A stretch of DNA of 23,021 bases, from positions 1 through 23,021 of IMG/VR virus record IMGVR_UViG_3300022198_005506; one strand, given 5' to 3'. Both the position numbers and the translations under genes were made by a program. The stretch is from a virus. Each line of letters opens with the position of its first letter. Position 1 is the stretch's first letter. The notes beneath the pieces were generated by a model. That model was not told where the DNA came from, ran no database searches, and was given only the letters and a program-made list of their open reading frames with translations. Of the stretch, positions 14,807 through 23,021 are shown piece by piece.

Positions 14807-15792
14807 CGTTTCGAACGCCAGACTTTATTCCCGGTCAACCATTAAGTGCTGCACATTTGAACGCAGTGCAGAGAGAGGCATTGCGCGGCAGGATGGCTGC
14901 TGCTCGTGGTCCCGGGATGGCTGCAGTCAATTCCATGGGCGGTCCACAAAGTTCGCACATGCCACGACCGCAGGTTCAGTTGTGCATTGCGACTCAGGAT
15001 TTCCAAGAAGGAGTTGGCGACACTGACCTTTACACGACAGACTTCGTTCCTTCAGGACCAGCAGTTCTCTATCGTTTGAACACGACGACGAGTCTGTACG
15101 AAAGCGAGGAAGAGTACTCACCGTTTCGTGTCTGGGATGTGGCATCGTGGATCGCCGGAGTTCCGACAAATATCAAAAAGGGCACAGTGTTCTATGCAGC
15201 TCTGAACAAAGAGAGCGAGCGGTTGGAAATCATTGCATCCACCGGTATGCAGGTGCTGGAAGGTCTGAATGTCGGCTGCGTGGGTGACGGGTGGTATCGG
15301 ATCGAGCTGGCGGATTTCGATGATACGCCGGCAGCGGATTATTACTACTGCTCCGAAGACATGCAGCAGGAACTGCAGGACGACTGCGATCTGTGCGAGG
15401 AAACGCGACCGGAAGATCTCGACGCATACACTGGGACGTGTGCTCCGCTGGGCGGTGTGATGATGAATCGCACTCGCCCGATCGGCAGGGGCGAATTCGT
15501 CTATGCTCATGACACCAGACGACTGCCGATTCTGGAGGGCGGTCACGTTCGGTTGCTTCCGATCCATCACTGCATCAAGAGTGTTCCAGCGCCGGACAGT
15601 ACTCCGGAAGAGCCGAAGTGGATGGAGGTCAAGGAGCAGTACTACGCCATCATGAGTGCAGAGTATGAACTGCTGCAGATCCCGCTGTCTGACTGGGAGT
15701 GCTGCGACGGCGAAGTGATCCAGACGAAGTGCGATTGGTTGATCATTGAAGGCAAGCACTGTGAAGGATGGGAAGTCACATGCCCACAGTAG
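14803..15792 (+). CDS. Probable tail tip structural protein
   Basis: The 329-residue product starts at ATG 14803 in an ATGA overlap; the longer frame from 14713 would run inside the preceding gene. The opening TFRTPDFIPGQPLSAAHLN resembles the start of many phage tail or fibre proteins, in which a PGxPLSAxHLN-like stretch precedes a domain that attaches to the tail. The rest is acidic, strand-rich and has about 12 cysteines, including YYYCSEDM, DCDLC and WECCDG. No glycosidase or protease motif is apparent. A role in the tip or in host contact is plausible from position. Confidence 0.55.
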   Translation: MTFRTPDFIPGQPLSAAHLNAVQREALRGRMAAARGPGMAAVNSMGGPQSSHMPRPQVQLCIATQDFQEGVGDTDLYTTDFVPSGPAVLYRLNTTTSLYESEEEYSPFRVWDVASWIAGVPTNIKKGTVFYAALNKESERLEIIASTGMQVLEGLNVGCVGDGWYRIELADFDDTPAADYYYCSEDMQQELQDDCDLCEETRPEDLDAYTGTCAPLGGVMMNRTRPIGRGEFVYAHDTRRLPILEGGHVRLLPIHHCIKSVPAPDSTPEEPKWMEVKEQYYAIMSAEYELLQIPLSDWECCDGEVIQTKCDWLIIEGKHCEGWEVTCPQ

Positions 15793-16355
15793 GATTGCCG
15801 GGAGTTCGAAAGAAGCGGGCGGTTGTTGACTGTTGCTGCAACCGCGGTTGCTGCGAAGATCGCTGCGTTCCTTTGGTTGTGAAGACTGTAAATGGTCAGT
15901 TGGCAGAAGTCCCGAACACAGACTGCGAAAATCCACTGCCGGTGCAGTTAAACGTCACGGTCACTGCAACATCCAGTTACGGCAACTTCACCTGCTTCAA
16001 CAACACGGGTGTGCTGACATTCAAGACACCAATCAGCGGTGGCACGAACTGCTGGCAAGGCAGGATCTCAGGGTCTTGCACGGACTGCAACGGCGCGACG
16101 TTCTCCTACGTCTACGACATTGTTCTTTGCTGCCGGAATGTCGACAACGAATACACAATCAGCATGGTTCCCGTTGAAACGACATGTCCTGCTGAGACCC
16201 TGACAGAGACTGCTGGAGCAACAACCTGCGATCCATTTTTGATTTCCGGTTGCTGGTCTACTTTCGGTGGCTGCTTTGTTGGCTGCCTGGACGGCACGGA
16301 TCCGATCCCATCACCGTCCTTCACTGTGTGCTTTGAGATTTATGAGGTTCCGTAA
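15780..16355 (+). CDS. Cysteine-rich virion-like protein
   Basis: The 191-residue product contains 19 cysteines, about one residue in ten, starting with DCCCNRGCCEDRC near residues 17-29. There is no signal peptide. The body is rich in Thr, Ser, Gly and strands (QLNVTVTATSSYGNFTC), like a small secreted beta domain held by disulfides. ATG 15780 is chosen because GGGAAG lies just upstream; ATG 15768 is an alternative that adds four residues. It overlaps the end of the preceding tail gene by 13 bases, and the next gene starts within its stop (TAATG). It is a candidate tail tip or receptor-contact protein. I do not recognise a family. Confidence 0.6.
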   Translation: MPTVGLPGVRKKRAVVDCCCNRGCCEDRCVPLVVKTVNGQLAEVPNTDCENPLPVQLNVTVTATSSYGNFTCFNNTGVLTFKTPISGGTNCWQGRISGSCTDCNGATFSYVYDIVLCCRNVDNEYTISMVPVETTCPAETLTETAGATTCDPFLISGCWSTFGGCFVGCLDGTDPIPSPSFTVCFEIYEVP

Positions 16356-19504: not shown

Positions 19505-19566
19505 CCCTGCCGGTCATTGCCGCTATGAACCTCAGCGGAACGCCTCTTTGGCCGGCAGGGCTTTTT
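19505..19566 (+). terminator. Probable terminator with nested hairpin
   Basis: CCCTGCCGG at 19505-19513 pairs with CCGGCAGGG at 19552-19560, a perfect 9-bp outer stem, and CCGCT at 19520-19524 pairs with AGCGG at 19534-19538 inside it. A C and five T follow (19561-19566). It lies 10 bases past the DUF1360-like stop and just before the GGAG ribosome binding site of the next gene. It probably terminates or attenuates transcription, and could also affect access to that ribosome binding site. The T tract is short, so efficiency may be partial. Confidence 0.65.
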
Positions 19567-19577
19567 GGAGCAGTCTG

Positions 19578-19985
19578 ATGCAACACGTCACAACGGCACA
19601 GCAGATGCCCGTCGTTCAGATTCAGGATGAAGACGGCAGATTCTGGTACAGTTTCACGGAGGATTGCACACTGCACGTCAGGACTCAGTTAGGGTTCGTG
19701 CGTGAGTACGCGATCCAGAAGGGGTACTGTTGGGATGGTGCCAGTATTCCGCAGGCGTTATGGATGGTGGTCGGCCATCCGATGGACGAGCGGTTCAAGT
19801 TTGCATCGTGTGTGCATGATTTGAATTGTGAGGAGTCTACGACGCAGTATCAGCGCCGTGAGGCTGATTCGATTTTCGAGTATCACCTGTATGAAGCGGG
19901 TGTTGGCAGATTAAGATGCTCAGCGATGTGGCTGGGCTGTCGGATTTGGGCGTTGTTTCTTTGGCCGATATGGAGGCGATTATGA
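19578..19985 (+). CDS. DUF1353 family protein
   Basis: The 135-residue product carries the family pattern: KGYCWDGASIP at 48-58, then a tryptophan, SCVHDLNC at 77-84 with the conserved HD pair, and RREADSIFEYHL at 93-104, with the conserved R..AD..F. DUF1353 proteins are common in phages, often near lysis or tail genes. The invariant His/Asp residues suggest a hydrolase or metal site, but the activity is not established to my knowledge. ATG 19578 has GGAG about eight bases upstream; TTG 19548 is rejected because it lies within the hairpin. The C-terminus is hydrophobic (WLGCRIWALFLWPIW), perhaps membrane-associated. It overlaps the next gene as ATGA. Confidence 0.75.
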   Translation: MQHVTTAQQMPVVQIQDEDGRFWYSFTEDCTLHVRTQLGFVREYAIQKGYCWDGASIPQALWMVVGHPMDERFKFASCVHDLNCEESTTQYQRREADSIFEYHLYEAGVGRLRCSAMWLGCRIWALFLWPIWRRL

Positions 19986-20401: not shown

Positions 20402-20413
20402 TTGGAGGTTCCC

Positions 20414-21109
20414 ATGAGGTTCGCAGCACCATTTTCACTGCTGTTCTTTGTGATCGGACAGCAGTTATCTGAAGAGATCACGTTGCCGGTTCGTCCGGCT
20501 GGGCCGATTCAGCAGCAGGAGGAGCCTGTTGATCAGATCATCGACAGTTTCTCGGAAGACGAGATTTACTTGGTGGAAAGCGACGAGCAGTTACTGATTG
20601 CCACGTTTCCGGATGGCATCGTTGATGTCCTTCCGTTTGAACAAGGCAAGGGGCTATTCTCTCGGTTCGCCGGCGGGAATGGCCCAGAGTTTCGTTCGGT
20701 GCAGAAGAAGTTCGGATACGGTTTGACCGGGACAACGACCGGGGACGGTCAGTTGCTGCTGATCCCGATCAGTAATCCATCCGGGTTGATTCGGCAGAAC
20801 ATCACGATTACTGAAGGCCGCGGGGAGGATCTGATTGATCCGATTCCTCCTCCGCTGAAAGACGACGTTGATCGTGCGTTTGAATCCTACGAACAGGGCT
20901 GGAGAGATCTTCAGCGTCAGTTGGCGGACAAATTGGATTCAGGCGAGATTACATCCGAAGCGGCAGCAGCAGACTGGTTTCGCGATGGGATCACAGAAGT
21001 CCGCCGGCGGGCATTTGGTGAGATTCTGGAACTCGAAGCAATTGAGTTCGGTGGCGATGACTGGTCTGCACAGCGGCACGCAGACTACATCAGGGGGTAT
21101 GTGAAATGA
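20414..21109 (+). CDS. Predicted exported protein with N-terminal signal peptide
   Basis: The 231-residue product begins MRFAAPFSLLFFVIGQQLS, a short positive start and hydrophobic core typical of a signal peptide, so the mature protein should act outside the cytoplasm. The mature part is acidic. It has a strand-rich middle (QLLIATFPDGIVDVLPFEQG, then DGQLLLIPISNPSG) and a helical C-terminal part with EQGWRDLQRQLADKLDSG. GGAGG at 20404-20408 precedes ATG 20414 by five bases; TTG 20402 is rejected. It overlaps the papain-like protease gene by four bases, so the two probably act together, perhaps as partner or substrate, but no family is recognised. Confidence 0.65.
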   Translation: MRFAAPFSLLFFVIGQQLSEEITLPVRPAGPIQQQEEPVDQIIDSFSEDEIYLVESDEQLLIATFPDGIVDVLPFEQGKGLFSRFAGGNGPEFRSVQKKFGYGLTGTTTGDGQLLLIPISNPSGLIRQNITITEGRGEDLIDPIPPPLKDDVDRAFESYEQGWRDLQRQLADKLDSGEITSEAAAADWFRDGITEVRRRAFGEILELEAIEFGGDDWSAQRHADYIRGYVK

Positions 21110-21951
21110 AGAACAGCTTGCTTTTGCCCACTGATGAAGAACGGGAAGAACTGGCGAACATGCTGTCTGTCAGTTCGCGAGTTAACACAGCGGACTTACC
21201 GGGGTATCTGGATGTTCTTCAGGATCTTCGGCGAAGTCCGTTGCCGCAGATGCAGGTTGAGCGTCAGCAGCGATCTGACTGCCAGGGGAATGCTGCCGCG
21301 AACGGTGTGGAGTCGACGACATGGGGCAGCACGGGTGTCATGCCCGTGCTCTCTGAGATGTTCGCCTACAACGCATCTGAGTATCTCATGGGGCCACGCT
21401 ACGTGGGACGGGATTCCGGGAGCAGTATGCACTCCGGTGTTCGTCTGATGACGCGCGGCATCCCTGAACTGGGCGTTGAGCCCGGGATTCCGACGGAAGC
21501 AGACTGGCCGTACAGCAGGTACTGCAGAAGTGCGGCGGAGTTCGAGCGGTATGCTCGTGGGATCAAAACGGAATCGGCATGGGTTGAAGAGGTTCAACCG
21601 ATGCCCAGTTGGGACGAGGCTCTGGCATTGGTTGCAGCGCGTGGTCGCTTGCATATCGGCACATGGTGGGATGTTGCGTGGAAGACAGCCTCGGACGGCA
21701 CGCGGATCATGAGTCGTGTGCCAACACGTGGCGGCGGTCATGCTACGACGTGTATTTGGGCACGATACATTGATGGTGAATGGTTCCTGGCAGACTGGAA
21801 CAGTCACGGGTACGGTCACTTCCTGATTCCGCAGGGCGTGTATGAGGGTCTGCAGCGGGCACAGTGCGATCCGTTTGGCGGGTTCGCATTGATCCCGCCG
21901 CGGATGGTGGAGCGATACAACAGGGTTCAGACTGGAGGAGGATACGTATGA
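21106..21951 (+). CDS. Papain-like cysteine protease
   Basis: The 281-residue product has the catalytic layout of a C1-type papain fold: QQRSDCQGNAAANG with oxyanion Gln54 or Gln55 and nucleophile Cys59, GGGHATTC with His212, and ADWNSHGYGHFLIP with Asn232. These match the Q..C, H and N-S-x-G blocks of papain. There is no signal peptide, so it may be released by lysis, act in the cytoplasm or be carried in the virion. Possible roles include processing of virion proteins, host envelope protein cleavage or peptidoglycan peptide cleavage, since papain-like folds also occur in cell-wall hydrolases. It overlaps its neighbours by four bases on both sides. Confidence 0.75.
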   Translation: MKNSLLLPTDEEREELANMLSVSSRVNTADLPGYLDVLQDLRRSPLPQMQVERQQRSDCQGNAAANGVESTTWGSTGVMPVLSEMFAYNASEYLMGPRYVGRDSGSSMHSGVRLMTRGIPELGVEPGIPTEADWPYSRYCRSAAEFERYARGIKTESAWVEEVQPMPSWDEALALVAARGRLHIGTWWDVAWKTASDGTRIMSRVPTRGGGHATTCIWARYIDGEWFLADWNSHGYGHFLIPQGVYEGLQRAQCDPFGGFALIPPRMVERYNRVQTGGGYV

Positions 21952-22424
21952 GAAGGCTGTGTTCGAGACTGACTCTGAAGAACTGGGACACTTTTGGGAT
22001 CTTGTTGTTTTGTCTGATATTTCTTGCACATGTGATTCTCTCAGGGCTGAAATCCGGGCAAGCGGATGAGCCGCATCCGTATGTGGGCGCAACGGGATCT
22101 TCGCTGGATCAGCGTGTTGCTGATCTTGAACGCCGGGTGGCGGAATTGGAGAACCCGGCTGTTCAGGCAGCAGACAGAAAAGTGCTGGAGGTGATCACGA
22201 TGGAAAACTGCGGAGCTTGCCGGGTGTTCGAGGCAGATCTCCGGCAGGCTGGCACGCAACCGATTGACGTTCGGTACGTAAAAACATTCCCGGGTGATCC
22301 GAATCTGCGTCCAGCGTTCCGCTGGCGGCTTAATAATGGAACCTATGCTGTGCAGTCTGGATACAGTCGTGGTAGTCTTCCCCGCCTTGTTTCTGCGGTC
22401 CAGAACCAGATTCCGAAACAGTAG
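21948..22424 (+). CDS. Membrane-anchored thioredoxin-like protein
   Basis: The 158-residue product has a basic N-terminus, one transmembrane helix at about residues 16-32 (FGILLFCLIFLAHVILS), a short coiled coil (LDQRVADLERRVAELE) and a thioredoxin-like domain. That domain has the redox motif C-G-A-C at 88-91 after strand KVLEVITMEN, and later strands DVRYVKTF and TYAVQSGYS. The topology suggests the domain faces the periplasm or cell exterior, where it could form or reduce disulfides. GGAGGAGG at 21934-21941 is an excellent ribosome binding site six bases before ATG 21948. The cis-proline usual before the last strands is not obvious, so the family fit is good but not certain. Confidence 0.7.
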   Translation: MRRLCSRLTLKNWDTFGILLFCLIFLAHVILSGLKSGQADEPHPYVGATGSSLDQRVADLERRVAELENPAVQAADRKVLEVITMENCGACRVFEADLRQAGTQPIDVRYVKTFPGDPNLRPAFRWRLNNGTYAVQSGYSRGSLPRLVSAVQNQIPKQ

Positions 22425-22488: not shown

Positions 22489-22713
22489 ATGACGGATGAA
22501 GAGACAGCAGAAGATCAGGACGACGGCGATGGTGCGTTTGAATGGCAGAACAATCGCAGCATCAAACTAAATAAAAAGAGCGTCGCGTCCGTTGTCCGGA
22601 TTGCAGAACTCGTGATGAAACACATTGGCCCATACTTGCTTTGGATCGTCGCTGCAATAGCGTGGGGGATATTCATTGTAAGTACATTTTATGCGTGGAG
22701 TTTAATTCAATGA
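22489..22713 (+). CDS. Small C-terminal-anchored membrane protein, possible holin
   Basis: The 74-residue product has an acidic N-terminal half (DEETAEDQDDGDGAFEW), a short basic stretch, and a strong hydrophobic helix at about 48-70 (PYLLWIVAAIAWGIFIVST). Its size and its pairing with a second membrane gene (ATGA overlap) fit a holin or holin partner, but one helix with a cytoplasmic acidic head also fits other small membrane proteins. The ribosome binding site before ATG 22489 is weak (GGGG at 22480-22483). No endolysin is identified nearby except the papain-like protease candidate. Confidence 0.6.
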   Translation: MTDEETAEDQDDGDGAFEWQNNRSIKLNKKSVASVVRIAELVMKHIGPYLLWIVAAIAWGIFIVSTFYAWSLIQ

Positions 22714-23021
22714 GCGGCGTGATTTGGCAGGAGTTTCTGCACGTATTAGTAGCCGCATGGATCTGTTTTGCAACGGGTGCCATCCTGTGGCACTGGCGAG
22801 CATGGGCCACGTTTGCCGGGCTGCAACACTGCAGCAAGCTCCTGCTCTTGCTGTCGCCTGTGCTGCTGTCGGCGTTTGGGTATCGTTCGACTGAAGCGGT
22901 GAGAACAGCGGAACTACTGGCACAGCAGCCACGAGCAAGAAGCGTTTTTGACGAGGCGCCACGATTGGTGGCGGACATTGACACGGTCACAACAAAAGGG
23001 GGTACAATCGTTGAGTTTACC
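22710..23021 (+). CDS. Membrane protein, 3' partial
   Basis: From ATG 22710, overlapping the previous stop (ATGA), the frame stays open for 104 codons to the window edge. It has two hydrophobic segments, FLHVLVAAWICFATGAILW at residues about 9-27 and LLLLLSPVLLSAFGY near 44-58, then a soluble part with helix AVRTAELLAQQPRARS and an acidic stretch continuing out of view. Two helices and a soluble C-terminus could fit a holin- or spanin-like lysis component, but the gene is incomplete. Function unknown. Confidence 0.65.
   Translation, partial: MSGVIWQEFLHVLVAAWICFATGAILWHWRAWATFAGLQHCSKLLLLLSPVLLSAFGYRSTEAVRTAELLAQQPRARSVFDEAPRLVADIDTVTTKGGTIVEFT

Follow-up and report, generated by a model that had tools for sequence, protein, structure and literature searches.

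Why should a virus encode, immediately behind a cysteine protease, a small membrane protein resembling a thioredoxin, and on what would such a protein act? The DNA analysed here (the window, i.e. the whole 23,021-base IMG/VR record IMGVR_UViG_3300022198_005506) carries terminase, portal, capsid-protease and tape-measure genes, and its virus likely infects a planctomycete, since a contig of a Planctomycetaceae metagenome-assembled genome (MAG) encodes a protease 95% identical to that of the window together with homologs, in unchanged order, of the genes on the window's right-hand side, on a contig of 10 kb, a size at which a binning error is conceivable. Loci with related proteases in two further genomes of the host family (G118 and G183) agree with a planctomycete host. 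The record opens (positions 1-105) with a 33-base unit, seen in translation, that occurs three times in a row head-to-tail, possibly as an assembly artefact or an end repeat.

Table 1. Features of the protease-thioredoxin cassette in the window (product names and functional sites are predictions; residue numbers refer to the respective protein).
Feature	Position	Strand	Basis or remark
Exported-looking conserved gene directly upstream of the protease, third module member	20402..21109	+	tblastn; protease-bearing viral records
Papain-fold (C1A-like) cysteine protease, putative	21106..21951	+	18-sequence alignment, model, PDB fold match
Putative catalytic residues C59, H212 and N232	21280-21282, 21739-21741, 21799-21801	+	invariant
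Envelope-anchored thioredoxin-fold protein, predicted, 158 aa, type I slot protein	21948..22424	+	ATG at 21948
Transmembrane (TM) segment, residues 16-34	21993..22049	+	predicted N-in/C-out
Coiled-coil helix, residues 53-68	22104..22151	+	model; coiled-coil peptides matched by the family profile
Compact thioredoxin fold, residues 77-155	22176..22412	+	model and structure comparison; dN/dS ~0.1
CGAC active-site motif, residues 88-91	22209..22220	+	CxxC in 32/32 loci
Proline P122, invariant; expected to be the cis-Pro of the fold	22311..22313	+	alignments
Small single-TM protein, 74 aa, positional holin candidate only	22489..22713	+	same position in other type I cassettes
Second small membrane protein	22710..23021	+	runs off the window

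Sequence and model together predict an envelope-anchored thiol-disulfide oxidoreductase as the product of the gene behind the protease, and we regard its identity as an anchored thioredoxin-fold protein as highly probable. The hydrophobic segment is flanked by a charge of +4 on its N-terminal and -1 on its C-terminal side, so that the C-terminal thioredoxin domain should face the periplasm, and all members of the family that we examined have an anchor at the N-terminus, be it a TM helix, a signal-like segment or a lipobox. An AlphaFold2 model (11 family members) comprises a TM helix (residues 10-35), the coiled-coil helix (53-68) and a core (79-153) of beta-alpha-beta-beta-beta-alpha topology, in which strand 79-84 precedes C88-x-x-C91 at the start of helix 89-101, the NCGAC segment (residues 87-91) thus placing its CxxC where the helix that follows core strand one begins. 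Model confidence was mostly pLDDT 80-90 for the core blocks, with one block at 67, and 71 overall (pTM 0.46). Structure comparison returned mainly thioredoxins (TrxP with a Z score of 7.3 over 78 residues, SoxS with 6.7, the C-terminal domain of DsbD with 6.7 and E. coli thioredoxin with ~6, with KaiB and certain thioredoxin-like subunits of mitochondria tying), values that, lying below 8, are modest and indecisive by themselves. Independently of the fold match, thioredoxins ranked first when the family sequence profile was compared with the PDB (E 0.0012), and 5 of 11 family members match Pfam Thioredoxin_7 (best 8.5e-5). The window protein alone gave no thioredoxin match in Pfam, its matches in Pfam and PHROG being weak and of coiled-coil type only; the corresponding protein of G183 passes the PF00085 cut-off.

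A CxxC motif by itself is weak evidence, several other window proteins containing one. The CGAC motif stands above chance because the CxxC is intact in all 32 loci inspected (some of them near-copies), and because the presumed cis-Pro and a Gly-Tyr pair near the C-terminus are invariant as well: C88, C91, P122, G138 and Y139 are unchanged across the alignments, P122 being the presumed cis-Pro ahead of the strand that faces the active site. Comparison with the close relative on the MAG contig revealed purifying selection on the thioredoxin domain (dN 0.064, dS 0.676; dN/dS ~0.1) and a less constrained stalk (N-terminal part: dN 0.209, dS 0.515; dN/dS ~0.4). The earlier note on this DNA, which had described a membrane-anchored, thioredoxin-like protein with a CGAC motif and an export-oriented domain, is thus borne out by the anchor, the fold and the conserved CxxC.

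Some relatives of the gene depart from this pattern. At L114 a tandem thioredoxin-like paralog that has lost both active-site cysteines (L114:712-1182, AKYGSPQS) lies between the protease and an intact WCGPC copy. At L046 (IMGVR_UViG_3300045125_000038) the thioredoxin gene and its neighbours appear frameshifted, with WCGPC in another frame, probably through sequencing errors. A second thioredoxin relative, with the motif EDCIPC, is found at a contig edge of the same MAG (L048:2589-3215, G027 contig C301) among neighbours that we named by eye from their sequence as a thyX-like gene, a DNA polymerase A-like gene and a CsrA-like ORF.

The preceding gene encodes a putative papain-fold protease. 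In an alignment of 18 sequences C59, GGHAT and WNSHG are invariant, Cys59 being the sole invariant cysteine, and the protease model (pLDDT 90.5) best matches xylellain in the PDB (Z 18.8 over 227 residues), with the S-layer protease Cwp84 at Z 15.9. Fold and the residues C59, H212 and N232 together assign it to the papain fold; the comparison of its sequence profile with the PDB found no relative, and the placement comes from the fold search alone.

How tightly are the two genes linked across phages? The earlier note had based its link to the protease on gene overlap, which in the window amounts to the 4 bases shared by the thioredoxin start codon and the protease stop; a 4-base overlap is present in 25 of the 32 loci inspected. 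A direct search of viral contigs and GenBank phages with the window protein gave no match, as the protein is too divergent for single-sequence search, and relatives were reached via the protease, then synteny, then the thioredoxin of locus L027. The protease-seeded scan found 22 loci in viral records and one in the MAG; the thioredoxin comes next in 13 of the viral loci (L026 being cut by the contig end and L046 frameshifted), a different protein, certain or probable, in 7 (L038 by kinship only), and 2 are cut off. A reverse scan seeded on the L027 thioredoxin, which ignored the protease, yielded 21 loci, and the protease lies upstream, usually with an ATGA overlap, in 20 of the 20 with upstream DNA (including L114, where the CxxC-less gene separates the two), a figure that is no census of all phage thioredoxins, the L027 seed recovering its own subfamily. 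Given this co-occurrence, the proposed link holds as a linkage that goes beyond overlap alone, and fails as an obligatory pairing.

The exported-looking gene upstream accompanies the pair wherever the DNA of a locus reaches that far, and the small TM protein recurs at the equivalent place in other type I cassettes (those with a thioredoxin behind the protease). The module is present in phages of the window type (G005, G008, G017, G018) and also in G013, G014, G016 and G026, which are without detectable homologs of the window's terminase or cysteine-rich genes; the unit of thioredoxin conservation is the cassette, not the virion backbone. Neither the protease (two queries) nor the window thioredoxin had a match among 50,697 GenBank phage records; the conserved phage gene pair is real, and has no counterpart in the catalogued phages searched. 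Among 170 genomes of the host family, the thioredoxin profile matches a single one, the MAG containing the phage contigs, and the protease was found in 3, as well as in 2 of the 392 genomes of a second set. An origin of either gene from the host chromosome was rejected on these counts, and the distribution of both looks phage-specific. A DUF1353 protein (window 19548-19985; PHROG tail assembly chaperone) is encoded upstream of the cassette and lies near it in several relatives too.

The slot behind the protease is modular. In type II loci (L003, L035, L039, L040, L043, L044 and probably L038) the thioredoxin is replaced by a lipoprotein-like or anchored protein with a coiled coil, a 'DHGI...LHaxlH' segment and a CPGGVCP-like C-terminal tail (for example L003:9104-9838); the two such proteins tested had no family match, and the thioredoxin profile and PF00085 detected nothing elsewhere in the type II records, some of which are perhaps fragments, PF00085 being a weak probe here that misses most type I records too. 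Type III comprises L086, L087 and L088, prophage loci of one planctomycete (G118), where an exported trypsin-like serine protease fills the slot (L087:5411-6271, Pfam Trypsin_2 1.9e-9, with a CPGGVCP tail in the L087 copy). The G118 cassette sits shortly before the terminase gene, and the lysis genes of lambdoid phages occupy a similar place ahead of terminase. In G183 the slot again belongs to a thioredoxin, with WCGPC, whose gene overlaps by 4 bases that of the very divergent protease before it. In the protease tree, whose root is uncertain and several of whose branches are long, type II forms a branch within type I, with starred support and with L031/L032 as its neighbours, so that one thioredoxin replacement explains the pattern; the thioredoxin proteins of L031/L032 already possess a C-terminal two-cysteine tail. 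The thioredoxin is therefore replaceable and the pair is not obligatory, as 7 viral and 3 prophage loci keep the protease with another protein in the slot, and these slot swaps behind one protease offer a natural comparison set.

What, then, could the thioredoxin do? One proposal, which in the earlier note took the form of disulfide exchange in the cysteine-rich tail proteins at lysis, is that it helps tail or virion proteins of the phage that are rich in cysteine to fold or to exchange disulfides. The note's picture of a phage with cysteine-rich tails is a fair description, several window ORFs being 5-10% cysteine (the protein encoded at 15768-16355 has 19 cysteines in 195 aa, no Pfam match and, among the relatives tested, only a near-identical copy in the MAG), and the richness of window-type phages in such ORFs is what commends the proposal. 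However, G013, G014, G016 and G026 keep the thioredoxin without homologs of these genes, and G023 presents the combination that the earlier note had named as telling against its idea, i.e. the protease and a 569-aa protein with 40 cysteines (L055:3487-5193), and no thioredoxin found; the cysteine-rich genes of such other backbones are non-homologs, so that it is the general idea and not one specific pair that is probed. Moreover, virions are put together in the cytoplasm, and the domain should lie across the membrane from there, in the periplasm. The link to cysteine-rich tails was rejected on gene distribution, by which tail-protein assistance is already largely refuted, and we consider this role very improbable. 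The thioredoxin could also be a dedicated redox partner of the protease, keeping Cys59 reduced or freeing it from a mixed disulfide in the oxidising periplasm and serving as an in-trans device for the timing of lysis. Such a role would accord with the 20/20 co-occurrence, with translational coupling, with the status of Cys59 as the only invariant cysteine of the protease and with P1 Lyz, an earlier case of a phage lysin controlled by disulfides (PMC3556154), but the viral and prophage loci that retain the protease with no adjacent thioredoxin speak against it, as does the branching of type II within type I, the lineage of the protease having thus persisted after the thioredoxin was lost. Activation of Cys59, which the earlier note had also put forward, is accordingly possible and no general requirement, and we think it rather unlikely to be the principal role.

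In joining a TM segment to a coiled coil the protein recalls inner-membrane spanins, and its slot permits domain exchange while retaining the anchor and the helical stalk, as might be expected if this periplasmic protein aided disruption of the outer membrane, with the thioredoxin as a structural or cross-linking head. Yet the CxxC is invariant even in divergent members, and a purely structural head would need none; nor was an o-spanin partner recognised in a survey that covered nested lipoproteins unsystematically, which leaves a spanin-like role improbable. A further candidate role is interference with the redox balance of the host envelope, or superinfection exclusion, independent of lysis: an exported redox domain of phage-specific distribution (1/170 host-family genomes) would suit either, but the tight coupling to the protease and the place within a cassette of membrane proteins are at odds with both, and we judge this possibility quite improbable.

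As the best explanation, although a tentative one, we favour that the thioredoxin and the protease jointly attack a disulfide-stabilised host envelope at lysis. Planctomycete envelopes have been described as made of cysteine-rich protein stabilised by disulfides, and cysteine-rich YTV-domain proteins are present in cell wall preparations (PMC8567305). The YTV domain occurs in all three candidate host genomes (Planctomycetaceae) versus none of 14 control genomes. Starting from the computed fold, active-site residues, anchor, protease coupling, phage-specific distribution and likely host type, we propose that the thioredoxin, whose gene is translationally coupled to that of the protease and lies with it in a cassette for exported and membrane proteins, would act in the reducing direction, with electrons from a putative donor, on disulfide cross-links of a protein-rich envelope as its presumed substrate. 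The protease would be freed at the time of lysis through a holin-type membrane lesion; the periplasm-facing thioredoxin would loosen the cross-links, perhaps keeping Cys59 of the protease reduced as well, and the loosened envelope would then be cut by the protease.

A protease and a disulfide-active protein at the envelope fit the dismantling of a disulfide-stabilised protein layer, and envelope attack is further favoured by the G118 cassette, where a second, trypsin-like protease occupies the slot shortly before terminase. No peptidoglycan-hydrolase Pfam family was found at E<=1e-4 among the predicted proteins of G013 (51), G023 (53) and G017 (54), protein sets that come from simple gene calling in which genes across piece borders are lost, with Pfam lists complete at this threshold; the PHROG scan of G023, seen through the best 25 of 42 families, is compatible with an endolysin there. 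Several observations count against envelope attack. Peptidoglycan is present in planctomycetes too, and lysozyme acts on their sacculi (PMC4432640); with transpeptidases in all three candidate host genomes as well, a muralytic lysin too divergent for recognition may exist. The thioredoxin can be replaced, as seen above, the holin family searches of small TM proteins were negative (the single-TM protein of the window having no family match), and next to the thioredoxin gene nothing was recognisable as an electron donor for a periplasmic reductase. Since no signal peptide is apparent in the protease, its contact with the thioredoxin stays putative. On balance we advance a lysis-related envelope function as a reasoned hypothesis, no less guardedly than the joint attack itself. 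The broader proposition that protein-walled planctomycetes are lysed by a reductive-proteolytic route with an interchangeable second envelope effector, instead of a canonical peptidoglycan-degrading endolysin, appears doubtful to us, if conceivable.

The open-licence literature on planctomycete phages with thioredoxin or lysis genes contained nothing on such a system, and in the papers and phage records searched the escape of phages from planctomycetes seems undescribed. For decades there has been dispute over what the planctomycete wall consists of; the gene pair points to an envelope component that a phage may need to break, and makes it testable whether a disulfide-linked protein layer is load-bearing.

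Among known systems, the periplasmic thioredoxins SoxS, TrxP and the C-terminal domain of DsbD, which are among the best structural matches, share the exported fold, the CxxC and the presumed cis-Pro with the window protein. Unlike them, it is phage-encoded and protease-coupled, has a coiled-coil linker and is without a known reductase partner. Its C88-P122 spacing of 34 residues is shorter than the CxxC-to-proline spacing of E. coli thioredoxin, which is ~44. Cytoplasmic phage thioredoxins and glutaredoxins of the NrdC/NrdH type are likewise phage-encoded with a thioredoxin fold, but they are soluble and serve nucleotide metabolism, whereas the window protein is anchored and sits in another gene context, which sets it apart from the soluble cytoplasmic class. 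The C1A proteases xylellain and Cwp84 have their fold in common with the phage protease, which differs in its apparent want of a signal peptide and in forming a family of its own with no PDB sequence match. Akin to Rz-type inner-membrane spanins, the window protein is predicted to combine an N-in TM segment with a periplasmic coiled coil. P1 Lyz and SAR endolysins, finally, are comparable only under the model of a redox partner for Cys59, as phage lysis factors with thiol-disulfide control, P1 Lyz demonstrating that disulfides can govern phage lysis (PMC3556154); control is intramolecular in P1 Lyz, whereas here it would fall to a separate thioredoxin acting on an unrelated class of enzyme.
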